Positions 18,437-52,103 of a stretch of DNA of 64,000 nt are shown here, in pieces. Made by a program: the position numbers and the translations under genes. This stretch comes from Methanofervidicoccus sp. A16 (lineage in GTDB: Archaea > AGJL01 > Methanococci > Methanococcales > Methanococcaceae), in NCBI RefSeq assembly GCF_003351865.1, contig NZ_CP022242.1:248001-312000 (forward strand), given 5' to 3'. The stretch's first letter is position 1, and every line of letters starts with the position of its first letter. The notes below the pieces were generated by a model that made no database searches, was not told the DNA's origin, and saw nothing but the letters and a program-made list of their open reading frames with translations.

Positions 18437-18565
18437 TAAAACCCTAAGATTGTATATTAATATATCTGAATGGAATATTTATTTTATTAAATTTCATATA
18501 TGATTATTTTTATTATTAAATATTTATTATTGTATCATATTAAATGTTTAATATGGGTTATAAAA

Positions 18566-19879
18566 ATGTCAAATGATATCATGAACTTTGATCTTAGCAA
18601 CTTTCAGAGTTTATGGGATACAGAGGAAAAAGAGGATGTACTTAAGGATAAATCTCAACTTTTGGTAGATTTAAAAGGAGAACCTGGTAAAAACTGTGGA
18701 GGTTTCTGTAGATTCTGTTATTTTAGGAAATTAGATAGGGATAATATAACACCTTTTGGATGCAAAAACTGCACATATCAAATAGGCTGTGATTACTGTA
18801 CATACTCTGTAAGAGAGATTAATGGAGATTTTCTCCCACTACCACTGGTTATACAACAGGTTCAAAGTGCCCTCTTCTTTCAGAGGTATAAGAAGGTGAA
18901 TATTACTGGTGGGGGAGATATAAGTTTCTATCCAGATCTAATACCTCTCTGTGAGTATATCGGTAATATGGGTTTAAAGATACACTTAGGATACACCTCT
19001 GGAAAGGGTTTTAAAGATTTAGACACTGCAAAAGTTCTTGTAGATGCTGGGGTGGACGAAGTTACATTCTCAGTATTCTCCACAGATCCAGGGATAAGAA
19101 AAGAGTGGTTAAATGATAGAAACGCCGAGATATCTTTAAAATGTCTCCAGTACTTCTGTGAAAACTGTGAGGTACACTGTGCAGTAATAGTTATTCCAGG
19201 GGTCAACGACGGAGAGGTTTTAAAAAAGACGTTGTCGGATTTGGTAGATTGGGGAGCAAGGGGAGTTATATTGATGAGGTTTGCAAACACCACTGAACAG
19301 GGTCTTATACTAAAAAACGCTCCAATTATAGAGGGCATAACCCCCCATACTATTGAGGAATTTAAAAATATTGTGAAAGAGGCCCATGAAAACTTTGGAG
19401 ACAATATCAGAATCACTGGAACACCCCTCTACGATCCCTTAACAAAGGCACCCTTTGCAATAACCTATCATGAGCATATACTTGAAAGATTGAGGGATAA
19501 GGTAGAGGCTGAGGCTACTATAATCACTGGAAGGATAGCCTATAATTTTCTTAGAAAAGTATTTCAAGATACGCCAGTTAATGTTGTCAAGGTAAATAAG
19601 GATATTGCAGATCTTATTACAGCAGAGGACTTAAAAACAGTAGACCCTAAGGAGTTGAAAGACACAGTATTTATTCCACCTCTAGCCTTTGTCCATGACA
19701 GGATAGCAGAGGAGATACTAAACAGAGATGGAGGAGATCGGATGGTACTTAGAGGTGTGGATAAGTTAACCTTAGATGGAGAGATAAGTGGTACCTTGAC
19801 AGAGGAGGAGGTTTTGGAGTTTGAGAGAAGGGCTTTTACTGAGTTAATAGAAAAGATAAACTTTTTTGGGAAAAGGTAG
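18566..19879 (+). CDS. mmp10: Methanogenesis marker 10, radical SAM McrA-arginine methyltransferase
   Basis: Radical SAM enzyme (437 residues) of the Mmp10 family, which C-methylates an active-site arginine of McrA. The CX3CX2C motif is in [12 protein letters not shown], followed by more cysteines (GCKNC, GCDYC) typical of the family. The SAM-binding GGGD is in [13 protein letters not shown]-terminal domain follows the barrel. I chose ATG 18566; the 22 hydrophobic residues that the longer frame would add look spurious. It is divergent from mcrB, a neighbourhood consistent with its substrate being McrA. Confidence 0.93.
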
Positions 19880-20653: not shown

Positions 20654-21355
20654 CTATTCCAAACTTACAACGATTACAGTGATGTTATCTTCACTTCTTT
20701 CAAGTGCCAACTTAACAAGTTTTCTACAGGCCTCTTCAGGTTCGTAGGATCTTACGATCTCTGCAATTTCTCTGTCATCTACGTAATCATGGAGGCCATC
20801 ACTACAGAGTAATAATGTTCCCTTTAGTTTTATTCTGTAGATATCTGGCTCGATATTTTCTTCAATACCTAAGGCTCTTGTAAGTACGTTTTTCATTGGG
20901 TGTTTCTTGGCATCTTCTTCATCTATGATGTTTGTGTTGAGGAGTTCCTGGATGTAGTTGTGATCCTTCGTATGCCATACGTTGTCATCATCTATGATGT
21001 AGGCTCTACTATCTCCAATATTTGCTATGACGCACTCTCCATTTTTATTTAGTAAGCAGGCTACAAGTGTACTTCCCATCTTTGCTCCAACTATATCACT
21101 GTAGGCTAAGATCTCTCTGTTGGCATTTTCAAATGCTTTTTTAAGTAGATCTTCCGGTTTGCCCTGGGATCTCTTGATGGTTTCCTTTAACTCCATTATG
21201 GCTATCCTACTTGCTTTTTCTCCATAGGCATGTCCTCCCATCCCATCTGCCACTGCGAAGACGTAGTATTTACCTATTTTTTCTGCCAGGTAAGCATCTT
21301 CGTTTTTCTCCCTTTTTCCCTTCACTGAAAGGGCTGAGAATTTTATTTTATTCAT
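20654..21355 (-). CDS. PP2C-family serine/threonine protein phosphatase
   Basis: Metal-dependent phosphatase of 233 residues in the PP2C/Stp1 class. All core motifs are present: KNEDAY (Asp20), VADGMGGHAYG (Asp37), IGDSRAY, LLCSDGLHDYV and the terminal DNITVIV. These supply the aspartates of the two-metal site. It should reverse the phosphorylation made by the kinase two genes upstream. Its ATG overlaps the stop of the propeller gene by four bases (ATGA), so translation is probably coupled. PP2C enzymes are uncommon in methanogens, so acquisition from bacteria is possible but unproven here. Confidence 0.93.
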   Translation of the reverse strand: MNKIKFSALSVKGKREKNEDAYLAEKIGKYYVFAVADGMGGHAYGEKASRIAIMELKETIKRSQGKPEDLLKKAFENANREILAYSDIVGAKMGSTLVACLLNKNGECVIANIGDSRAYIIDDDNVWHTKDHNYIQELLNTNIIDEEDAKKHPMKNVLTRALGIEENIEPDIYRIKLKGTLLLCSDGLHDYVDDREIAEIVRSYEPEEACRKLVKLALERSEDNITVIVVSLE

Positions 21356-22794
21356 TTCTCTTCCCCAATGAGTTTTTTCAACTCTTCGATTATCTCTCTT
21401 TTTTCTTTTTCAAGTTGTTTTTTTCTTCTCTTTCTGTATTTATAGTATTTATTTCCGAAGTAGAGGGACATAAGAAAGATTACAGCTCCTGAGGTATAGA
21501 GATAGTAGTTGTTTACATAGGGAGCAAAATCTTCTTCATTAGGTATTCCATCCTGGTCTATATCTAGGGCAAGGGATTTTGCTTTTAAAGTAAGTTCTCC
21601 TGCTTTAGAATAATCTCCTCTTTTAAATGCCTCCTCAGCCTGGTGTAATATATCTTCGGCTTCTTTAACATTGTATTTGGTCTTTATCTGAGAGATTATT
21701 AATTTAACGTCATCTAATATTTTTTCTATCGTTTGAACTGAGACAAAGAAATAAATATCTCCACCTCCAGCAACAATATACTCCCCATCTGGAGTTATAG
21801 AGACTGAGTAAACACTACCATCTGTTTCATATTTCCACAGTAACTTCCCCTCTCTGTTGAAGAGATAGACATGTTTATCCCAACTCCCAGCAACAATATA
21901 CTCCCCATCTGGAGTTATGGAGACTGATTTAACATAATCATCTGTTTTATACTTCCATAACAACTCCCCCTCTCTGTTGAAGAGGTAGACATGATCATCC
22001 TCACTCCCGGCAACAATATACTCCCCATCTGGAGTTATGGAGACTGAGATAACACTATCATCTGTTTTATACTTCCACAGTAACTTCCCTTTTTTATTGA
22101 AGAAATAAATATTATTTCCTATTAACGACCCCTTCCCACCTCCAGCAACAATATACTCCCCATCTGGAGTTATAGAGACTGATTTAACCCAACCATATAT
22201 TCCATCCTTCCACAGTAACTTCCCTTTTTTATTGAAGAAATAAATATTATTTCCTATTAACGACCCCTTCCCACCTCCAGCAACAATATACTCCCCATCT
22301 GGAGTTATAGAGACTGAGTAAACACTACCATCTGTTTCATATTTCCACAGTAACTTCCCAAATCTGTTGAAGAGATAGACATGATCATCCCCACTCCCAG
22401 CAACAATATACTCCCCATCTGGAGTTATAGAGACTGAGTAAACCCAATCATCTGTTTTGTACTTCCATAACAACTCCCCCTCTCTGTTGAAGAGATAGAC
22501 ATGATCATCCCCACTCCCAGCAACAATATACTCCCCATCTGGAGTTATAGAGACTGAGTAAACACTACCATCTGTTTCATATTTCCACAGTAACTTCCCA
22601 AATCTGTTGAAGAGGTAGACATGACCATACCCACCTCCAGCAACAATATACTCCCCATCTGGAGTTATGGAGACTGATTCAACAACTCCATCTGTTTCAT
22701 ATTTCCATAACAAAACATACTCTTCCCCCCATACTACGTTCAACATACATAAACTTAAAAACACCGCTAGTCCAAATATTTTCACTCTCTTCAT
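21352..22794 (-). CDS. Exported eight-repeat beta-propeller protein with one membrane helix (putative sensor)
   Basis: A protein of about 480 residues. A signal peptide (FGLAVFLSLCMLNVVWG) is followed by eight repeats of about 40 residues with the core SVSITPDGEYIVAG and ends in LLWKYETDG, typical of PQQ/WD-like propeller blades. Next come a helical segment, a calcium-loop-like DIDQDGIPNEEDF, one membrane helix near residue 445 and a basic cytoplasmic tail ending in IEELKKLIGE. The propeller would be outside the cell. It is placed between kinase and phosphatase genes. Start uncertain: ATG 22794 (signal peptide standard) or GTG 22803, which would overlap the kinase stop. Confidence 0.85.
   Translation of the reverse strand: MKRVKIFGLAVFLSLCMLNVVWGEEYVLLWKYETDGVVESVSITPDGEYIVAGGGYGHVYLFNRFGKLLWKYETDGSVYSVSITPDGEYIVAGSGDDHVYLFNREGELLWKYKTDDWVYSVSITPDGEYIVAGSGDDHVYLFNRFGKLLWKYETDGSVYSVSITPDGEYIVAGGGKGSLIGNNIYFFNKKGKLLWKDGIYGWVKSVSITPDGEYIVAGGGKGSLIGNNIYFFNKKGKLLWKYKTDDSVISVSITPDGEYIVAGSEDDHVYLFNREGELLWKYKTDDYVKSVSITPDGEYIVAGSWDKHVYLFNREGKLLWKYETDGSVYSVSITPDGEYIVAGGGDIYFFVSVQTIEKILDDVKLIISQIKTKYNVKEAEDILHQAEEAFKRGDYSKAGELTLKAKSLALDIDQDGIPNEEDFAPYVNNYYLYTSGAVIFLMSLYFGNKYYKYRKRRKKQLEKEKREIIEELKKLIGEEK
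22072..22317 (-). repeat. 111-bp exact tandem duplication inside the propeller gene
   Basis: Bases 22072-22182 and 22207-22317 are identical over 111 bp. They encode propeller repeats 4 and 5 with the unusual loop KGSLIGNN. The other repeats are also nearly identical at the DNA level. This points to recent copying of whole blades by recombination. Confidence 0.85.
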
Positions 22795-22799
22795 CCTTC

Positions 22800-25271
22800 T
22801 CACTCTACCAACTTCAAAAATTTCTCAATTTCTTCAACTATAGATTCTCCTTTAATTCCCTCCCTTACCATATAATCGATCTGTCCTATTAAACACCTAC
22901 AATCCCTCTTAAGTTTCTCATCCCTTATCTTACCTTCCGCAAACTTCAACTCCTTCAAACAGGACACTAAATCCCCCTCCTTTGCATGGTAGAAGGCTAA
23001 GTACAGGGACTTCTCAACTAACGTTCTGTAATCCTTCGTCAGGTGCAGACTGATACCGTACCTCTTCTTCATAAACTCATAAACCCCCTCCCTGAACTCC
23101 CTTACACTTGGCCTCTTCTCAGGATCCTTGGAGAGACATCTCATAATTAAATCGTCCAGCCCCTCTGCATCCCTGTTGTACTTTGAGGGAGGTTCTGGTA
23201 TATAATTTCTTACCTTCTCCTCTATCTCGGAGTTAGTTTTCCCATCAAATGGGTTAAACCCTGTTAGCATGACGTAAAGGAGGAGTCCCAGTTGATATAC
23301 ATCTGTTTTTTCACTTACCTTCCCTTCCAGTTGTTCTGGAGCGGAGTACATCGGTGTAAATCCTCTAATACTCCTGGACTTCGTAACTGCAACTGCCAAC
23401 CCAAAGTCTGTTATCTTAGCCTCGTAGAACCTCCCGATCCTCTTAAGTAGAATATTCTGTGGTTTTATATCTCCATGTATAACAAGTTGGGAGTGGGCGT
23501 ATTCAATACCCCTGGCAACGTCGTTTATGATCCTACATGCATCCTCGATATCCATCCTCCCCTCCTTGAGACTCCCTCCATCAACGTACTCCAAGACCAT
23601 ATGAGGGAATGGAGTCAACCTTGGCTCTATCAACCTGACGATATTCCTGTGGTTAAGTTTTCTCCAATTTTCAAGTTCGTTGAAGAATACCTTCTCAGCC
23701 TCCCTTGTAAGTTCCTCAGGTATCTTCAATGCAACTATACTTCCATCATCCCTCCTCTTAGCCTTATAAACCCTGGCAAAACCACCAGAACCGATATACT
23801 CGAGGGACTCGTACTCCTCCCTAAGTTTCTCAAGGCGCTCATCCCTTATGAAACCACCCCCTCTCTCAACTTCAATCTTAATACCCCTCCTAACATCCTC
23901 AACTTTATATATCTCAGGTTTCACCTCTCCAACATCCACAAGTAACCTCCTTATCTGTGTTATGTTCCTATCACAGGCATTTCTCAGATCCTGGATATAG
24001 GGTATCTTAGAGGTTACCTTTAGAGACACAGCCTCATCTTCAACCTCGTTTAAATACTGCCATACCTCCCTATACCTCTCCCTTGCATCGTAGTACTCAC
24101 CTGACTTGAACAACTCTTCTGTCTTCTCCATCATCCTCTCGGCATTTCTTATCTTCACAGCGATTATTCTCTCGGAGCACTCCTGTATCAACTCTTTAAC
24201 CCTATCTTTATCTCTAACATCCAGGGATCTTAAATACTCCAGTGCAGAGTAGAGTTTCCTCTCAGCCTCAGGATCCTCGATATCTACATCTATAAGATAC
24301 TCCCCTTTACCAAGTTTCACATGTTCAATACTCTCCTCCACACTTTCCAGCCCCTCCCTTATCTTATCCCTTTCAAAATTCCTCTTTTCAGCGATATCAA
24401 GTGCAGATTTGAATAACCTCTTAGCCTCCATATAACTCTCCAATGCACTGTCGTAGTTCTTAGATGAGAAAAACTTATTACCCTTCTCAACGTACTCGTT
24501 TGCCTTGGAAACAAGTTTGAGCATCTCCCTGTTATCTATGGCTATCTTTGCGTTCTCTATGTTCTGTCTTATCCTCTCCTGGGCAAACTCTATATCCCTA
24601 ACTAGATCCTCATCTTTCCTCTCCCTTGCAGCCTCCTTAGCCCTCTCATACTCCTCAAGTGATCTCCTCCACAGTTCAATAGATTCCTCAAATTTATCCT
24701 GTGTGAAACTTCTCTCAGCATCTAAGGCAAAATCCTTCGCCCTCTGGAGTAGATAATCTGGAGTTGGTTTAGCAGCGAGTTTAGCCTTCTCTATAAGTTC
24801 TTCAGCCTCATTGAATCTACCCTTTTTGAGTAGATTGAGTGCCTCCTCCTTCAACTCCTTAGCCTCCTTAGGATTTGAGCCAGGGAGTTCTCTACTTATA
24901 AGTCTTTCAACATCTTCTATTTTCATAAAAATTCTATTTTCTATTTCCAATATCTTTTCAAGTTCTGGGATGAGATCCTCGGCGTTATCTAAATCTCCAC
25001 TTCTGATTCTATCGTAGATACTGTTAGCAACATTCCTTGCCTTTCCATGGATCTTTATCTTTGCTTCCAAATTTTTAATCCTCTCAACGATATTCCTTTC
25101 TTTTAAAGCCAGATTTTTAGCCTCTTTCAGTAATTTCAATGCTCTTTTGAAGTTATCTTTTTTAATCTCCCTTATAGCCTTTCTGATAATATCTTTTGAT
25201 GCATTATAGTAACTATCGTCTTTTATTAATTCTTTCAATTCAAGCATCACCTCTCTGATCTCCTCCAGCAT
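22800..25271 (-). CDS. Hanks-type serine/threonine protein kinase with long helical N-terminal region
   Basis: Predicted cytoplasmic kinase, 823 residues. Residues 1-450 are helical hairpins resembling TPR-like repeats (for example FKRALKLLKEAKNLALKERN and FNEAEELIEKAKLA). The kinase domain spans about 488-735: glycine loop IGSGGFARV 493-501, Lys516 in VALKIP, catalytic HGDIKPQN with Asp601, DFG at 622-624 and APE at 644-646. HGD replaces the common HRD, so activation-loop control may differ. No membrane helix is seen. It is first in a tight three-gene unit with the propeller and PP2C genes. A GGTGATTAACG leader precedes the ATG. Confidence 0.93.
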   Translation of the reverse strand: MLEEIREVMLELKELIKDDSYYNASKDIIRKAIREIKKDNFKRALKLLKEAKNLALKERNIVERIKNLEAKIKIHGKARNVANSIYDRIRSGDLDNAEDLIPELEKILEIENRIFMKIEDVERLISRELPGSNPKEAKELKEEALNLLKKGRFNEAEELIEKAKLAAKPTPDYLLQRAKDFALDAERSFTQDKFEESIELWRRSLEEYERAKEAARERKDEDLVRDIEFAQERIRQNIENAKIAIDNREMLKLVSKANEYVEKGNKFFSSKNYDSALESYMEAKRLFKSALDIAEKRNFERDKIREGLESVEESIEHVKLGKGEYLIDVDIEDPEAERKLYSALEYLRSLDVRDKDRVKELIQECSERIIAVKIRNAERMMEKTEELFKSGEYYDARERYREVWQYLNEVEDEAVSLKVTSKIPYIQDLRNACDRNITQIRRLLVDVGEVKPEIYKVEDVRRGIKIEVERGGGFIRDERLEKLREEYESLEYIGSGGFARVYKAKRRDDGSIVALKIPEELTREAEKVFFNELENWRKLNHRNIVRLIEPRLTPFPHMVLEYVDGGSLKEGRMDIEDACRIINDVARGIEYAHSQLVIHGDIKPQNILLKRIGRFYEAKITDFGLAVAVTKSRSIRGFTPMYSAPEQLEGKVSEKTDVYQLGLLLYVMLTGFNPFDGKTNSEIEEKVRNYIPEPPSKYNRDAEGLDDLIMRCLSKDPEKRPSVREFREGVYEFMKKRYGISLHLTKDYRTLVEKSLYLAFYHAKEGDLVSCLKELKFAEGKIRDEKLKRDCRCLIGQIDYMVREGIKGESIVEEIEKFLKLVE

Positions 25272-25279
25272 CGTTAATC

Positions 25280-25490
25280 ACCTACAAGTTTTCTCAACTC
25301 TTTTTTTCCTTTTCAAAAATTTCCTTCTTTATTTTCTCTTACTGATCCAATAATTGATCCAGAAATGGATGATTTTTAAAATTAGATAGATAATTATTAG
25401 ATTATATTATTATAATTATTTTCCAATCCCAACCTAAGATTTGGATCCATATCATCTGGATAAGTATGAAACCGATTATTATATAGAGAT
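25280..25490 (-). pseudogene. Decayed C-terminal end of a TPR membrane protein gene
   Basis: This stretch aligns with the 3' part of the TPR gene at 26790-28289 in the same orientation: CATCTGGATAAGTATGA against CATCTGGATGAATATAA, then TTTCAAAAATTTCC and a final ELRKLVGD-stop next to the ELKKLIGE tail of the intact gene. Frame breaks occur in the two-helix membrane region. The relic stop lies eleven bases before the kinase start, and its tail provides the GGTGAT of the kinase ribosome binding site. Confidence 0.75.
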
Positions 25491-25672
25491 TTCTGTATGA
25501 TAGTTTTATGTTTTTACTTTTAATGAGGTAAAGGATGGTAGTTATTCAGACAGATCCTAAAATTATCAAAAAAATAAAAATAATGATTACAATAAAAATA
25601 AATAAGTAAAAAAATAAAATAAAAAATTACAAAAAAATAAAATCTCCTAAGTACCTACATTATAGTGATAAT

Positions 25673-26044
25673 ATGAAGACATATCTACTTTTAATATTAC
25701 TATCCATCACAACAATACTTTCAGGTTGTATAGATTTTGGAAATAGTGAATACAATGAAGTATTAATAAAGGATCTAAATCTTGAAGGAAAAACTGCAAT
25801 AGTGGTATTTCACGCTGACTGGTGCAAATACTGTAAGGATCTTGAACCTACACTGAACCAGTTGGAGAAGGAGGGTGTAGAGGTTATAAGGATAGACGTT
25901 GATGAACGTCGAGAGTTGGCAGAAAAATTGGGAATTAGAGGGCTACCTACTGTTATCTACGTCAAGGACGGTGTTGTAGTTGGAAGAACTATCGGCTACG
26001 ATCCAGAGGGAATAGTAAATAAGGCCAGGGAACTTTATCAGTAA
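25673..26044 (+). CDS. Thioredoxin-fold lipoprotein (copy 2)
   Basis: Paralogue of the gene at 3093-3464, 123 residues, same design: hydrophobic signal with lipobox ILSGC, active site WCKYC, and cis-proline loop RGLPTVIYV. Differences are scattered and mostly conservative, with the lowest similarity just after the lipid anchor. It is followed 14 bp later by a second ccdA. It lies beside the kinase/TPR accessory cassette, divergent from it. Confidence 0.87.
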   Translation: MKTYLLLILLSITTILSGCIDFGNSEYNEVLIKDLNLEGKTAIVVFHADWCKYCKDLEPTLNQLEKEGVEVIRIDVDERRELAEKLGIRGLPTVIYVKDGVVVGRTIGYDPEGIVNKARELYQ

Positions 26045-26058
26045 TCTTAGGAGATGTT

Positions 26059-26709
26059 ATGGATCTACTGTTAATATTTATTTCAGGGGTATTTACTGCA
26101 TTGGGTCCCTGTGTATTGACTGTACTACCTGTGGTATTTTCCTATACCTTTGGGATCTCGGAATCTAAAATAGAGGCATTTATTGTATCTTTGTTTTTTG
26201 TTTTGGGATTCTCCATAGTTTTTAGTTTATTGGGGGCTATTTCATCTGTTTTTGGCATATTTTTAGGAATTTACAGGTTAAAGTACGTTGCAGGTATTTT
26301 GGCGATAGTTTTAGGTTTATTGATTATGTTTAAAAAGGGTTTTTCATTTAGATTGAAGGGAAATTTTTTTAACAGGATTATAACTAAAATTAACAATAAA
26401 AATATCTCCCTTAAGTATAAAGTGCTTACCTCTTTTATCTTTGGATTGTCTTACGGTGTTGGAGCCAATGTATGTGCAGATCCTATTTTAGCGGGAATAT
26501 TAACCTACGTATCTACAAAATCAGATGTTATTTTTGGAGTTTTGGCTTTATTTATATATTCAATAGGTTATGGACTTCCAATAATTCTCCTAAGTGTTAT
26601 AGGTTTTGAAGGTAAAGAGGTATTTAAGAAATTTGTAAACTCTCATCTTGTTAGTTTTATCTCAGGTTTTATACTGATTGTGTTGGGACTTTTTGTTATT
26701 TTTAGGTAA
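26059..26709 (+). CDS. ccdA: CcdA-family transmembrane electron-transfer protein (copy 2)
   Basis: Second CcdA-type protein (216 residues, six helices), with the cysteines of LGPCVLTVLP and GANVCADPIL conserved. Length and order match copy 1 exactly and most residues are the same, so the duplication is of the whole two-gene unit. It likely passes electrons to the adjacent thioredoxin lipoprotein. AGGAG precedes the start. It is convergent with the TPR gene. Confidence 0.88.
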   Translation: MDLLLIFISGVFTALGPCVLTVLPVVFSYTFGISESKIEAFIVSLFFVLGFSIVFSLLGAISSVFGIFLGIYRLKYVAGILAIVLGLLIMFKKGFSFRLKGNFFNRIITKINNKNISLKYKVLTSFIFGLSYGVGANVCADPILAGILTYVSTKSDVIFGVLALFIYSIGYGLPIILLSVIGFEGKEVFKKFVNSHLVSFISGFILIVLGLFVIFR

Positions 26710-26789
26710 TTGGAGTTAAAAAATACTTCTGAGTTTCCTGGGATCTATGGGCTTTAGGTTTTTCTGTCCCTATTAAAGTATTTGTCTTC

Positions 26790-28289
26790 CTAATCGTCCT
26801 CATCGTCGTATTCACCTATAAGTTTTTTCAACTCTTTAATTATATATCTCTTCTCCATTTCAAAAATTTCCCTCTCTATTTTTTTCTTATTGGTCCAATA
26901 CTTAATCCAGAAATAGGTGGTTTTTATAATGATGTAAATAATTATTAGGTTAATTGTTGTAATTAGTATCCAATTCCAACCAAAGATTAGGATCCATGCT
27001 ATCTGGATGAATATAAGAGTTATTATTATATAAAGTATATAATTTTTCTTATCTGCTTTACCAAAGCATATTATGGATTCTAAAAATTTTCCTAACTTAT
27101 AGAGAGCAACTCCTTTATTATTCCAAGCATCTACATCTTTTGGATCTATTGCCAATGCTCTATCGTAACACTCTATAGCTTCTTCGTATCTTCCTAAATC
27201 ATAGAGAGCATTTCCTTTATTATACCAAGCATAAGCATATTTTGGATCTATCTCCAACGCCTTATCATAGTATTTTATTGCTTCTTCGTATCTTCCTAAA
27301 TCATAGAGAGCATTTCCTTTATCATTCCAAGCATCTACATCTTTTGGATCTATCTCTAACGCCTTATCATAACACTCTATAGCTTCTTCGTATCTTCCTA
27401 AATCATAGAGAGCATTTCCTTTATTATACCAAGCATAAGCATATTTTGGATCTATCTCCAACGCCTTATTATAGCATTCTATTGCTTCTTCGTATCTTCC
27501 TAACTTACGGAGAGCATTTCCTTTATTATACCAAGCATGAACATACTTCGGATCTATCTCCAACGCCTTATCATAGTATTTTATTGCTTCTTCGTATCTT
27601 CCTAAATTAGAGAGAGCTAGTCCTTTATTATTCCAAGCATATACATTATTTGGATCTATCTCCAACGCCTTATCATAACACTCTATTGCTTCTTCGTATC
27701 TTCCTAAATCAGAGAGAGCAACTCCTTTATTATTCCAAGCATAAGCATACTTCGGATCTATCTCCAACGCCTTATCATAGTATTTTATTGCTTCTTCGTA
27801 TCTTCCTAAATTAGAGAGAGCAACTCCTTTACCATTCCAAGCATCTACATATTTTGGATCTATCTCCAACGCCTTATCATAGTATTTTATTGCTTCTTCG
27901 TATCTTCCTAAATTAGAGAGAGCAACTCCTTTACCATTCCAAGCATCTACATATTTTGGATCTATCTCCAACGCCTTATCATAGTATTTTATTGCTTCTT
28001 CGTATCTTCCTAAATTAGAGAGAGCATTTCCTTTATTATTCCAAGCATGAACATATTTTGGATCTATCTCTAACGCCTTATTATAACAATTTATAGCTTC
28101 TTCGTATCTTCCTAAATCAGAGAGAGCATTTCCTTTATTTTTCCAAGCATCTATATAATTTGGATCTATCTCCAACGCCTTATTATAACAATTTATAGCT
28201 TCTTCGTATTTCCCCTGATCATATAGAGTATTTCCCTTCTCGAACCATTCTTCTGCAGTCATACCATCAATTTTCTTCTTAGAAAACAT
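26790..28289 (-). CDS. Twelve-TPR protein with C-terminal membrane hairpin
   Basis: Protein of 499 residues. Twelve 34-residue tetratricopeptide repeats (consensus AWNNKGNALSNLGRYEEAI then YYDKALEIDPKY) run from about residue 10 to 415. Then two close membrane helices (IIITLIFIQIAWILIF and NLIIIYIIIKTTYFWI) and a charged tail with IIKELKKLIGE. There is no signal peptide, so the TPR arm is probably cytoplasmic, a scaffold at the membrane. Repeats 3-5 are near identical in DNA, with a 102-bp period. The tail motif matches that of the propeller protein, linking it to the kinase cassette. Confidence 0.88.
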   Translation of the reverse strand: MFSKKKIDGMTAEEWFEKGNTLYDQGKYEEAINCYNKALEIDPNYIDAWKNKGNALSDLGRYEEAINCYNKALEIDPKYVHAWNNKGNALSNLGRYEEAIKYYDKALEIDPKYVDAWNGKGVALSNLGRYEEAIKYYDKALEIDPKYVDAWNGKGVALSNLGRYEEAIKYYDKALEIDPKYAYAWNNKGVALSDLGRYEEAIECYDKALEIDPNNVYAWNNKGLALSNLGRYEEAIKYYDKALEIDPKYVHAWYNKGNALRKLGRYEEAIECYNKALEIDPKYAYAWYNKGNALYDLGRYEEAIECYDKALEIDPKDVDAWNDKGNALYDLGRYEEAIKYYDKALEIDPKYAYAWYNKGNALYDLGRYEEAIECYDRALAIDPKDVDAWNNKGVALYKLGKFLESIICFGKADKKNYILYIIITLIFIQIAWILIFGWNWILITTINLIIIYIIIKTTYFWIKYWTNKKKIEREIFEMEKRYIIKELKKLIGEYDDEDD

Positions 28290-32936: not shown

Positions 32937-33218
32937 TTACTCTACCAATTCAAATATCCTCACTCTAAATCCACCACTACGTCTAGTGTGCATCTTTCCA
33001 CATTCTGAGCACTTGTACCTTAAGTCCAACTTTTTAACAGGTTTTGAACCACTTGGGAGAGGTCTTGGATATCCTCCATAACCTGAGGTAACCCTTCTGA
33101 ACTGTCTCTGACCCCAGGTTAATTCACTTGCCTTCCTCTTCTTAGCCAACTCTACTGTATGTACAGTGTGTTTTTTACAGTAAGGGCAGTACCTCTTTAT
33201 CCTTTTTTTCATCTTCAT
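32937..33218 (-). CDS. rpl44e: 50S ribosomal protein L44e
   Basis: Zinc-binding large-subunit protein of 93 residues that sits near the E site. Its ligands are RYCPYCKKH near the N-terminus and [10 protein letters not shown] near the C-terminus. ATG 33218 has AAGGTGAATTCT upstream. Its first 44 bases lie inside the end of the GINS gene, so the two are probably translationally linked. Confidence 0.96.
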
Positions 33219-33726
33219 AGAATTCACCTTTTATCCTTTTAACGATCCCGTACTTTTCCAATATCCTAGAAATTCTTCTATCTAAGGATATGATATCGTT
33301 CTCATCTAGGTTATATACTGTTTCTCCATCTGTGAATTCTGGAAAATTGGTTAAGACCCTTACAATGTCAATATACCTCTGAGTATTTATAGGTTTTGGT
33401 ATCTCTGATAGATCCTCTGATACCTCTACCTTAGCCTCCTCTACCTCCTTCCTTTGGATGCTGGAGATACCTTCAATATCCTCGATTATCTTCAATATTT
33501 CTTTCTCCTCCTCTAAGAGATTCTCCCTACTCCCATAAAATGCCTTGTACAGTCTTAACTTTCTTAACTCTTTGATATAGTACAGTATCCGCCTGTGCTC
33601 CCTTTCACTTTCGTACTTTTCATCTTCTATATATTTTCTAACATTCTCGTAAAAATTTTCAGGTAATTTTGTCAATTTGTCATTTTTCAACTCGTTAAAA
33701 AATACATTTACAATCTCTTTATACAT
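33175..33726 (-). CDS. GINS-family DNA replication protein (Gins51-type)
   Basis: Protein of 183 residues with a helical A-domain ([21 protein letters not shown]) and a short C-terminal B-domain ([20 protein letters not shown]), the order found in Gins51-type GINS. It bridges MCM helicase and the RecJ-like protein at the fork. The context PCNA-GINS-L44e-S27e agrees with the same cluster known in other Methanococcales, which supports the call. The C-terminus overlaps the L44e start. Confidence 0.85.
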
Positions 33727-48521: not shown

Positions 48522-49889
48522 TTAATTATGTTCCCTTACAACCTCCTTACATTGGAGATTTTTATCCCCATACCTCTCTCTTCCACCTATATTTTTGATA
48601 ACCTCTAAGAAACGCTCCTTTAATTTAGGTAATTCCTCCCTCTTATAACTGTAAATTCTAAATGTAATACTTTTAAATCCTCTCTCAATCCCCTCTCCCT
48701 GATAGACATCTAAAATATCAACATCAAACATTCCTCTCAAAAGTTTCAGTATAATTTTCTCATCTACATTCTCCTTAAAGAGCACAGATATATCATTAAA
48801 GTATCTCTTTAAGTTCTCTCTTTTCCACTCCTCTAACTCTTTCTCCTCCATTAAAGATATATTAGCAATATTTACCCTTATCTCTCTACCATTTTTACTT
48901 AAAACTACAGTATCGTCTACAATATCTTTTAAAGTTCCATAGTGAATATGTCCAGTATATATATGCTTTAACGCTACCTCCTTGCCTATGGATCTCTCTA
49001 ACTTTTCCATCTCCTCGATAATTGCCCCAACAGCCTTGTTTGAATACCTCATCCCCCTTATAGTCTCACTTCCAAAGTGCTTAGCAGCCTCCTTCATTAT
49101 ATTAACGAAAGATTCCCTATCCTTTTTGGCAACTATGTCTTTTATCTTAATACATTCCTTAATGAAGGTTTCATGGATGTGTTCTATCTGAGGGTTGTAC
49201 ATCTGGATATCTGCGTAGAGATAAGGATTCTGTCCTATAATCCTCCCTATAATGTTTATCATAAGTTCATATATTGGTGAGGCGTACTTTCTAGACTCTT
49301 TTATATTTACATTCAACTCCTTCAATGTTGTTCCAAGGGATATATAGGCGTAATGGGTTAAACCCTGAATAATGCCCATTATTCTATCATGTTCCTTAGG
49401 AGTCATTATAACTACTCTTGCCCCCTCTCTTTCTAAGAATTCCTTCACCTTCCTAAACCAAGGATTTGACATATATTTCTCAGAGGGTGTGAGTATTACA
49501 ACTTGCCTCTTCAAGGAGGGAGTGGAAGGTCCGAACATAGGGTGGGTAGGTATAACACATACACCTTCCTTTACACATTCCTCCATGGCTTTGGCTGGTA
49601 TCTCCTTTATAGATGTGATATCCATAAGAAGAGAACCTTCTCTAACATGGGGCGCAACCTCCCTTATTACCCTTTCAGTGACGTTTATAGGTACTGCTAC
49701 AACCACCACATCTCCTTTTTTTGCCGCCTCTATATTATCTGTTGTAAACATTACTCCCAACTCTTTCTCTACATTTTTACCTTTGTTTACATCCCTTCCA
49801 GTAACAACTATGTCAAATCCCCTACTCTTTAAGAATCTTGCAAACCACTTTCCCAGCCCATCAGTTCCACCGATTATTGAGACTATCAT
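48522..49889 (-). CDS. tyrA: Prephenate dehydrogenase
   Basis: NAD-dependent enzyme (455 residues) of tyrosine synthesis. The Rossmann start is IIGGTDGLGKWFARFL, and the catalytic part has THPMFGPSTPSLKRQVV and GIIQGLTHYAYISLG. A C-terminal extension of about 170 residues (from about 285) includes an ACT-like region (KSITFRIYSYKREELPKLKERF), probably for feedback control. It stands alone between two non-coding stretches. Confidence 0.93.
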   Translation of the reverse strand: MIVSIIGGTDGLGKWFARFLKSRGFDIVVTGRDVNKGKNVEKELGVMFTTDNIEAAKKGDVVVVAVPINVTERVIREVAPHVREGSLLMDITSIKEIPAKAMEECVKEGVCVIPTHPMFGPSTPSLKRQVVILTPSEKYMSNPWFRKVKEFLEREGARVVIMTPKEHDRIMGIIQGLTHYAYISLGTTLKELNVNIKESRKYASPIYELMINIIGRIIGQNPYLYADIQMYNPQIEHIHETFIKECIKIKDIVAKKDRESFVNIMKEAAKHFGSETIRGMRYSNKAVGAIIEEMEKLERSIGKEVALKHIYTGHIHYGTLKDIVDDTVVLSKNGREIRVNIANISLMEEKELEEWKRENLKRYFNDISVLFKENVDEKIILKLLRGMFDVDILDVYQGEGIERGFKSITFRIYSYKREELPKLKERFLEVIKNIGGRERYGDKNLQCKEVVREHN

Positions 49890-50424
49890 AGTTAACTCCT
49901 ATCTCATTTTATTGATAAAAAATACAATACTGATATTACATAACATTTTAATTTTTATCAATAAATAAAAAATTTTATAAAAAATATTTTTTGTGCTATT
50001 AAAATAACACTGTTGTTATTGCCTATAATGATAAATTCTACCTAACAATACAAAACTTATTAAATAAATATCTCTAAGTTTTTTAAACTCTATAAAAATT
50101 AAAAATAAAAAAATAAAAAAGTAGAGAACCCCCATATTTAGAGTTTTTAGAAAAGAATAATTTCTTATTGATCAGGGATGTATTCTGATTTTAGTAAGGA
50201 TTTCCGATAAAATTGTATATAAAATAGAGTTTAAGAATTAAATAATAATCTCTACAAAACACGTCTTAAACATCTTTTTTTAGAAATCAGTAGATTTTCT
50301 CCTTTCAGTATTCATCTCCAGAAAATAGTAACAACGTTAACAACGTTTTATTTTACATACTATACTATTTTTAACCATACTAAAAAATTAACAATGAATA
50401 TAAAAAAGAATATTATATGGTAAG
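49890..50424. other. AT-rich intergenic region
   Basis: About 530 bp upstream of tyrA. Nothing gene-like is seen. GTGCTATTAAAATAACAC near 49994 is a short palindrome that could lie in the tyrA regulatory zone. Confidence 0.35.
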
Positions 50425-50540
50425 ACAGTAGAAGAATGGCTCAATGAAGGGAAATGCCCTCTATAAGTTAGGAAGATACGAAGAAGCGTCTAAATATTAA
50501 TTTAGAATTTAGATAAAGCACTGGAGATAGATCCAAGGAT
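50425..50540 (+). pseudogene. Decayed first repeat of a TPR gene
   Basis: Reads like the start of the TPR gene at 28289: EEWLNEG then, after a one-base shift, NALYKLGRYEEAS and, after stops, KALEIDP. The intact gene has EEWFEKGNTLYDQGKYEEAI. It ends about a dozen bases before the 3' end of tRNA-Met. Frameshift and stops make it non-functional. Confidence 0.75.
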
Positions 50541-50551
50541 TGCTGTTTAAG

Positions 50552-50665
50552 TGGTGCCGAGGGAGGGATTTGAACCCTCGACCTCTCGGTTTCCCAGGAC
50601 CCAAGGAAAGACCTTGGGACTATCCGTATGAGCCGAGCGCTATAACCAGACTAAGCCACCTCGGC
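50552..50665 (-). tRNA. tRNA-Met (CAT), with 36-nt intron
   Basis: Acceptor GCCGAGG pairs with CCTCGGC, followed by A and an encoded CCA. The anticodon stem CTCGG/CCGAG carries CAT at 50630-50628. An intron of about 36 nt (50591-50626) sits after position 37, the standard archaeal place, and folds with CCCAAGG/CCTTGGG. The T arm is GAGGGTTCAAATCCCTC. Elongator Met is suggested by the intron and the GC-rich acceptor. Confidence 0.93.
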
Positions 50666-50700
50666 ACATCCTATACACATCCCTAAATATTCTAATCTTC

Positions 50701-50764: not shown

Positions 50765-50849
50765 GCGGGGGTTGCCGAGCCTGGCCAAAGGCGCTAGGTT
50801 GAGGGCCTAGTCCCGTAGGGGTTCAGGGGTTCAAATCCCCTCCCCCGCA
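50765..50849 (+). tRNA. tRNA-Leu (GAG)
   Basis: Class II tRNA of 85 nt. The acceptor GCGGGGG pairs with CCCCCGC and the discriminator is A; no CCA is encoded. The anticodon loop TTGAGGG gives GAG, a leucine anticodon. The variable arm is TCCCGTAGGGGTTC. Confidence 0.93.
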
Positions 50850-52103
50850 CTTTTTATATACTCTTTTTAGATATAGTGTTATTAAGATAAAGATGAGAAT
50901 AGAGGATATTAGAGTTCCATAAGCACCCCCTACAATACCTATTTTTTTAACGAATAGATAGTTTAAGATACCATTTAGTGTAATCCCAATTAAAAGAATA
51001 TAGAGAGGTATCTTTCCATAACCTAGACCTTGAAGTGCAGAGGCGCATACAGTATATGAACTCATAAAACCTGCTGAAATTGACAGTACCTTTAGAGAGA
51101 TAACAGCCCTCTCATCCTCTACTCCAAAGAAGATCCTCAAAATCTCTTCTGGAAAAAGAAACATAATTAGAAGTACTGGAGTTATCAAGGTTAGATTTAT
51201 AAGAAGTGCTTTTTTTATACTATTAAAATCTCGAGTCTTAGCTATCCTTGGTAGTAGAGGTATTCCCACTGCAGAGGCAAATAGAAAAACCCCACGGGAG
51301 AGTAGAGAGGCGTATCCATATATACCGTTATCCTGGGCTCCTAAGAGGGACATTATAACTACACTGTCTAAGTCGTTCAAAAGACGGTAGGATGCAGTCC
51401 CTAAGGCTATAGGTATGGAGTAGAAAATTACCTCTTTAATTAAATCTCTTTTTTCTCTAAGTGTATTAACAATATCTAACTTTTCTATTTCTATATACCT
51501 CCTTAACAGGTGAAATCCAAAGAAACCTCCTAAGATGTAGGAAAGGGATATAGAGAGTATAGCACCTAAGACACCTAGATATAGAGAGAATACTACTGCC
51601 AAAGGTATTTTAAACAGGTACTCCACTATCCAAGTTTCTGAGAGATCCTTTATCTTCAGAAGTCCCTGAAGTACTCCTCTACCCCAGGATATAAAGGAGG
51701 AAGATATCACTGTAAAACCTACTACTAAATAGAGTGTTGTACCTATATCTTCATATCCTCCACTTAGAATATACCTTAGAAGAAAGATGAATAAGGCTCC
51801 AAGGGTAGAAAGTACTACCATCACTAACAGTATAGAGAAGATCCAAGTGTAATCCTTTCCTGAATAACGGGAGATATATCTCGCCATAGAAGGAGGTATC
51901 CCTGAACAGAAAAGTATGATCACAGTATCCATTAGAGGTAGTAATCCCCTTAAGATACCAAAACCCTCTGTACCCAGAATAATTGCAGTTATAAAGTAAA
52001 ATAGATAGGCCATACCCTTGGAGTAGATGTTGGAAATTACCATATAGACACTGTCCCTAACAAGATGATCCCTTTTCAATTTTTTAAGAAGGTTTTTTAA
52101 CAT
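50823..52103 (-). CDS. Oligosaccharide flippase (MOP superfamily, Wzx-like)
   Basis: Membrane protein of 426 residues with about 12 helices in the polysaccharide biosynthesis/flippase group. It may export lipid-linked glycans for S-layer or archaellum glycosylation, which would fit the uppP gene 3.5 kb away. N-terminal MVISNIYSKGMAYLFYFIT and ILRGLLPLMD are typical. The last eight codons (CGGGDLNP) lie antisense to the 3' end of tRNA-Leu, which is odd; the natural C-terminus may be just before. Confidence 0.87.
   Translation of the reverse strand: MLKNLLKKLKRDHLVRDSVYMVISNIYSKGMAYLFYFITAIILGTEGFGILRGLLPLMDTVIILFCSGIPPSMARYISRYSGKDYTWIFSILLVMVVLSTLGALFIFLLRYILSGGYEDIGTTLYLVVGFTVISSSFISWGRGVLQGLLKIKDLSETWIVEYLFKIPLAVVFSLYLGVLGAILSISLSYILGGFFGFHLLRRYIEIEKLDIVNTLREKRDLIKEVIFYSIPIALGTASYRLLNDLDSVVIMSLLGAQDNGIYGYASLLSRGVFLFASAVGIPLLPRIAKTRDFNSIKKALLINLTLITPVLLIMFLFPEEILRIFFGVEDERAVISLKVLSISAGFMSSYTVCASALQGLGYGKIPLYILLIGITLNGILNYLFVKKIGIVGGAYGTLISSILIFILITLYLKRVYKKCGGGDLNP

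Follow-up and report, generated by a model that had tools for sequence, protein, structure and literature searches.

Introduction

Elements that use tRNA genes as targets are known in the Methanococcales, among them MVV1 and the integrated plasmids of the pT26-2 family, which one report places at tRNA-Ser genes and, once, at a tRNA-Leu gene (PMC6972569). Archaeal integrases in general are described as favouring the 3′ ends of tRNA genes, and in that account only 7 of 44 tRNA genes were never used (PMC8371274). The locus analysed here, a relic of a TPR-family gene, is like these elements in sitting at the 3′ end of a tRNA gene. It differs from them in that no integrase was found, no duplicated tRNA 3′ end and no recognised element genes, and its tRNA is tRNA-Met, which is not the reported target of the pT26-2 family.

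The other close comparison is with the ordinary prokaryotic pseudogene of a multi-copy repeat family. The relic shares with such pseudogenes an intact paralogue, truncation, a frameshift, stop codons and, in a relative, a different set of lesions. We see no essential difference from this class; the position of the relic, beside a tRNA pair and at one end of an inversion, is incidental. It is a real but ordinary inherited gene remnant. No account of this particular relic was found in the available text of the literature searched by term.

The relic and its intact paralogue

The window, that is, the whole 64,000-nucleotide stretch that was analysed, corresponds to G000:C1:248001-312000 of a single-contig genome of 1,504,113 bp. 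G000 denotes the species of the window, a thermophilic methanogenic archaeon that may be a Methanofervidicoccus, and its nearest named relatives are filed as Methanothermococcus. The features discussed are collected in Table 1.

Table 1. Features at and around the tRNA-Met locus, in window coordinates.
Feature	Position	Strand	Remarks
TPR-family first-repeat relic, frameshifted, with stops	50400..50550	+	terminal stop codon 50548-50550
tRNA-Met (CAU), intron-bearing	50552..50665	-	CCA 50552-50554 from the sequence; Rfam tRNA 50555-50665
tRNA-Leu (GAG), divergent partner of tRNA-Met	50765..50850	+	
AT-rich spacer with right-hand breakpoint of the ~144-kb inversion	49921..50399	not applicable	
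Prephenate dehydrogenase gene (tyrA)	48522..49889	-	adjoins the relic only in G000; rad50 in 5/5 close relatives
Intact TPR protein, 499 aa, TPR array and C-terminal membrane/charged tail	26790..28289	-	tail by eye
Second TPR-family relic, remains of the C-terminal tail with stops	25296..25491	-	G000:C1:273296-273491; E 2.3e-6, 3.1e-5

The initial annotation had described a frameshifted first repeat of the TPR gene adjoining the 3′ end of tRNA-Met, and this description is confirmed. In a genome-wide search, the query 50400-50560 matches the intact TPR gene with E = 1.2e-10 (76% identity over query positions 48-137 and 71% over 4-137), and the weaker matches of the same query reach 90% over 41 bases. 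The Smith-Waterman score of the relic against the intact gene is 85; the best dinucleotide shuffle reaches 39, and none of 500 reaches 85. The separation of 22 kb given for the intact copy is also correct (about 22 kb), the two lying in opposite orientation. The relic begins about 25 bp ahead of the position first given for it (50425), and only 1 bp separates its final stop from the encoded CCA of the minus-strand tRNA-Met, an intron-bearing gene that was found by Rfam and missed by ARAGORN.

Read across its frames, the relic covers the beginning of the TPR protein plus a single repeat, after which it is truncated. Its raw translations read GKTVEEWLNEG, KGNALYKLGRYEEASKY and NLDKALEIDPRIAV-stop, and because these peptides fall in changing frames the copy is both frameshifted and stop-bearing. 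A pseudogene is expected to combine significant similarity to an intact family member with disabling lesions; here the similarity is that given above, and the lesions are the frame changes, the stops and the truncation.

The relic in relatives

Thirty-one genomes, the window's own included, were searched with positions 50400-50700. The tRNA-Met is present in 30 of them, the exception being G006, which is 54% complete. Besides the window's own genome, only G001 matches the tRNA together with the whole relic (83% over query positions 3-291, tRNA included); its relic has the same end at tRNA-Met and carries lesions different from those of the window. The relic cores of G000 and G001 are identical at 103 of 125 aligned bases, with 14 gap positions in addition. 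The match of G004 starts at query position 123 and represents a shorter trace, which scores 40 against the G001 relic, a score that none of 500 shuffles reaches; compared directly with the window's relic it scores 24, which 42 of 500 shuffles reach and which is not significant. The relic is what is left of the 5′ part of a gene belonging to a TPR family with several copies; it is shared with G001 and more decayed in G004.

The 60 bp beside the tRNA hold no significant trace of the relic in G005, G008 and G010, where the scores against G001 are reached by 22, 70 and 168 of 500 shuffles, respectively, nor in the outgroups G002, G003, G007, G009 and G011. In G005, G008 and G010, a gene that we take to be trmI, whose product is a GCD14-family tRNA methyltransferase by Pfam, extends up to the tRNA, a state that the trees containing outgroup rows interpret as loss of the relic. 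With the outgroup rows included, the flippase tree (96/94) and the tyrA tree (84/91) both place G000 outside the other five species, in the order G000 first, then (G001,G004) beside (G008,(G005,G010)). Both trees contain rows of odd base make-up; in the tyrA tree G001 covers 42% of the columns and there is one long row, and the G010 row of the flippase tree was taken from the named locus L099, which is the same DNA as G010:C11. Since G000 branches outside the other five in these rooted trees, the relic would predate all six species, and a single ancient relic, later erased in G005, G008 and G010, is the simplest reading of the sequences. The trmI tree, built with no outgroup, is compatible with this order and would also fit a relic that was gained in the ancestor shared by G000, G001 and G004 and never lost.

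The identity of the relic between G000 and G001, 82% over 125 aligned sites, is to be compared with 62-77% at the third codon positions of three genes and with 87.5% (84 of 96 bases) in the tRNA-tRNA spacer, a value higher than that of the relic. Because the value of 82% falls between these two references, weak constraint on the relic or its late death is possible.

According to the initial annotation, relatives with an intact TPR gene at this tRNA would have pointed to plain local decay. No intact or full-length TPR gene was found at this tRNA in any genome examined, yet local decay is indicated all the same, since the relic is shared and inherited. Two places where outgroups might carry the gene were considered and rejected. 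Downstream of trmI, tblastn (E up to 1e-15, identity >40%) found no TPR gene in the stretches fetched from G002, G003, G006, G007, G009 and G011, which extend from 1.3 kb (G002, where the contig ends) to about 8.6 kb past trmI, and the relic DNA itself gave only short or AT-rich matches to them. Beside the flippase gene of the named outgroup loci L101-L103, a search that accepted E values up to 1e-4 gave no match to TPR.

Gene order around the tRNA pair

The tRNA-Met/tRNA-Leu pair occurs in all six species of the clade (G000, G001, G004, G005, G008 and G010) and in the outgroups G002, G003, G009 and G011; the stretch fetched from G007 contains no tRNA-Leu partner. In those same four outgroups, tRNA-Met points with its 3′ end towards a radical-SAM gene, the ortholog of the one at window positions 18500-19879, and tRNA-Leu lies nearby. 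G007 does not fit this order, no ortholog of the radical-SAM gene having been found in it, and in G006 the radical-SAM gene is followed by a tRNA-Ser, to which a 23-base match beside that gene belongs. Within the clade, what follows the radical-SAM gene is varied: a similar long gene is present in G004 and G010, a different gene in G008, and a phosphatase-propeller-kinase cluster in the window, while the G001 contig ends about 1 kb past the radical-SAM gene.

Because tRNA-Met adjoins the radical-SAM gene in these four outgroups, a move of the tRNA pair in the six-species ancestor is most likely. The cut end of the relic coincides with the tRNA side of the new junction, so this move would have truncated the TPR gene, which would make the rearrangement that shifted tRNA-Met the probable date of the truncation.

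A second change of order is confined to the species of the window. The trmI gene adjoins tRNA-Met in all five close relatives; in G000 it is found at 154290-155147, 143 kb from tRNA-Met. Similarly, tyrA stands head-to-head with a rad50-like gene in the five relatives and does not in G000, where the rad50-like gene occupies approximately 148335-151346 (rad50, pheT and nadM are names judged from the sequence, not by family search). If the G000 segment that runs from about 154.0-154.3 kb to 297.9-298.4 kb is turned round, trmI lies at the tRNA again, that is, the link between trmI and the relic is broken in G000 in the way that an inversion of about 144 kb would break it. All five relatives keep the old order, and the relic of G000 sits at one end of the inverted segment. 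We also observe that a pheT-nadM block (G000:C1:151693-154040) lies between rad50 and trmI in G000 and between bacA and rpoA2 in G005; since this block has moved as well, at least one further step must have occurred, and one inversion is not the whole change.

Search for an integrated element

The initial annotation had offered two possibilities, namely, that the TPR cassette was carried on a mobile segment or that the area collects debris. The debris half agrees with the relic shared with G001, the trace in G004 and the second relic at 25296-25491. The mobile half is disfavoured by the genes that lie between the two TPR copies, by the lack of a second tRNA 3′ end in the window and by the lack of Phage_integrase matches in the clade.

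By Pfam name, the interval from 28.5 to 50 kb is mostly housekeeping (U32 peptidase, PCNA, S10, EF-1A, EF-2, S7, S12, an L7Ae-family protein, RNA polymerase and tyrA); one protein among those scanned there, 33175-33726, has no Pfam match. A mobile segment spanning 28-50 kb is therefore rejected, the interval holding mostly housekeeping genes. A direct repeat of the tRNA 3′ end, which was suggested as a check, was not found as an att copy in the window or in the genome. The best other match in the window to the last 49 nt of tRNA-Met is an exact run of 13 bp, which falls within tRNA-Leu, or 14 bp if one mismatch is allowed, and the four significant weak matches of tRNA-Met in the genome (E up to 0.001) are all genes for other tRNAs, namely, tRNA-Thr, tRNA-Arg, another tRNA-Met and tRNA-Cys.

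The integrase gene sought in the wider chromosome was likewise not found: Phage_integrase (PF00589) has no match in the window's own complete genome or in any of the six clade genomes, of which G001 is 64% and G005 86% complete, and G001, G005, G008 and G010 are drafts split into 50 to 240 contigs. The same search finds the domain in 14 of 14 control genomes, M. jannaschii included, and in the other six of the 12 genomes of the genus, three of them above the family cut-off. Phage_integr_3 (PF16795) has no match in any of the 12 genomes and matches in 3 of the 14 controls. The recombinase search covered these two families. Without a second tRNA end, with the genome matches being other tRNA genes, and with neither of the two integrase domains matched in the clade, integration with att duplication is rejected.

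A further observation concerns the tRNA itself. An encoded CCA and a changed T-arm are found on tRNA-Met in six of six clade genomes and in none of five other members of the genus; this count leaves aside G006, whose tRNA-Met was not located, no full tRNA match being present in its genome, and for G010 and G002 it relies on the tRNA flanks instead of alignment rows. Many genomes of the sister family share this T-stem and CCA, and for this reason the state seen in the clade may be ancestral.

Origin of the relic

We propose, with a probability of roughly 85%, that the relic is an inherited pseudogene fragment with no present function. By the time of the last ancestor shared by all six species, the TPR gene would already have been cut short, most probably through the rearrangement that would have taken the tRNA-Met/tRNA-Leu pair away from the radical-SAM gene and set it between trmI and a flippase gene. 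The relic would then have decayed without selection, to the point of being erased in G005, G008 and G010.

It is tempting, given the position of the relic at a tRNA 3′ end, to regard it instead as the scar of an element that entered the 3′ end of tRNA-Met in the clade ancestor together with the TPR gene, and of which everything but the relic was lost. Such a scar would accord with the breadth of archaeal integrase targets, most tRNA genes being used (PMC8371274), and the clade-wide CCA and changed T-arm look as if an attachment site had replaced the end of the tRNA. However, neither integrase family was detected in the clade, though four of the PF00589-negative genomes are drafts; the window lacks a second tRNA end; the pT26-2 family is reported at other tRNAs in this order (PMC6972569); and the T-stem and CCA, being shared with the sister family, may be ancestral. 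We consider this scar unlikely. It is quite unlikely that, in the clade ancestor, an unrecognised integrative element used tRNA-Met, replaced its T-arm, added the CCA and left the TPR stub, in a lineage that has since lost its tyrosine recombinases. A short functional gene with a single TPR, or a regulatory RNA, under weak selection is very unlikely: a recognisable repeat and the same end are kept in both copies, and their identity is slightly above that at third codon positions of neighbouring genes, but the frameshifts and stops differ between the two lineages, the sequence is nearly lost in G004 and leaves no significant trace in G005, G008 and G010, and the only Rfam match in the window, at gathering thresholds, is the tRNA.

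The location of the relic at one end of the inversion, with the intact copy inverted relative to it, could also suggest that ectopic recombination between these two TPR copies, which lie at 28 kb and 50 kb of the window, caused the rearrangement, with the relic as a by-product. This is hardly credible, because the two breakpoints of the inversion are near genome positions 154 kb and 298 kb, whereas the intact TPR gene lies at 275-276 kb; no TPR copy was found near 154 kb by the genome-wide search with the relic; and the left breakpoint is joined to the window by AT-rich matches only. Moreover, relatives that lack the inversion carry the relic, so the relic is older. An inversion through TPR repeats is accordingly rejected as contradicted by the breakpoint positions.

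The inherited pseudogene fragment that we favour is of little importance by itself. Its analysis removes a false lead, namely that a tRNA hosts a TPR island, and suggests two breaks around the tRNA-Met/tRNA-Leu pair in this lineage, the first when the pair came to be flanked by trmI and the flippase gene in the ancestor of the clade, the second through the inversion found only in G000.

The TPR family

Starts like that of the relic head several proteins of the genus, including TPR arrays, TPR with a kinase-like domain, TPR with propeller-like and kinase-like domains, and TPR or propeller proteins with the same tail (Pfam assigned the domains in the window, whereas those in relatives were judged by eye). 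Copies with internal stops occur elsewhere in this family too, for example in G007 and G020, and the relic is unremarkable for that reason. In the window, the second relic and the intact TPR gene are about 1.3 kb apart, separated by two small genes. The family appears to be modular, the parts that are shuffled being a conserved TPR unit at the N terminus, TPR arrays, WD40-like propellers, a Ser/Thr kinase and a membrane/charged tail common to its members. Its members include those at window positions 20654-28289 and at loci L112-L118, L124, L080 and L082; the window itself has a PP2C-propeller-kinase cluster and a TPR-tail member.
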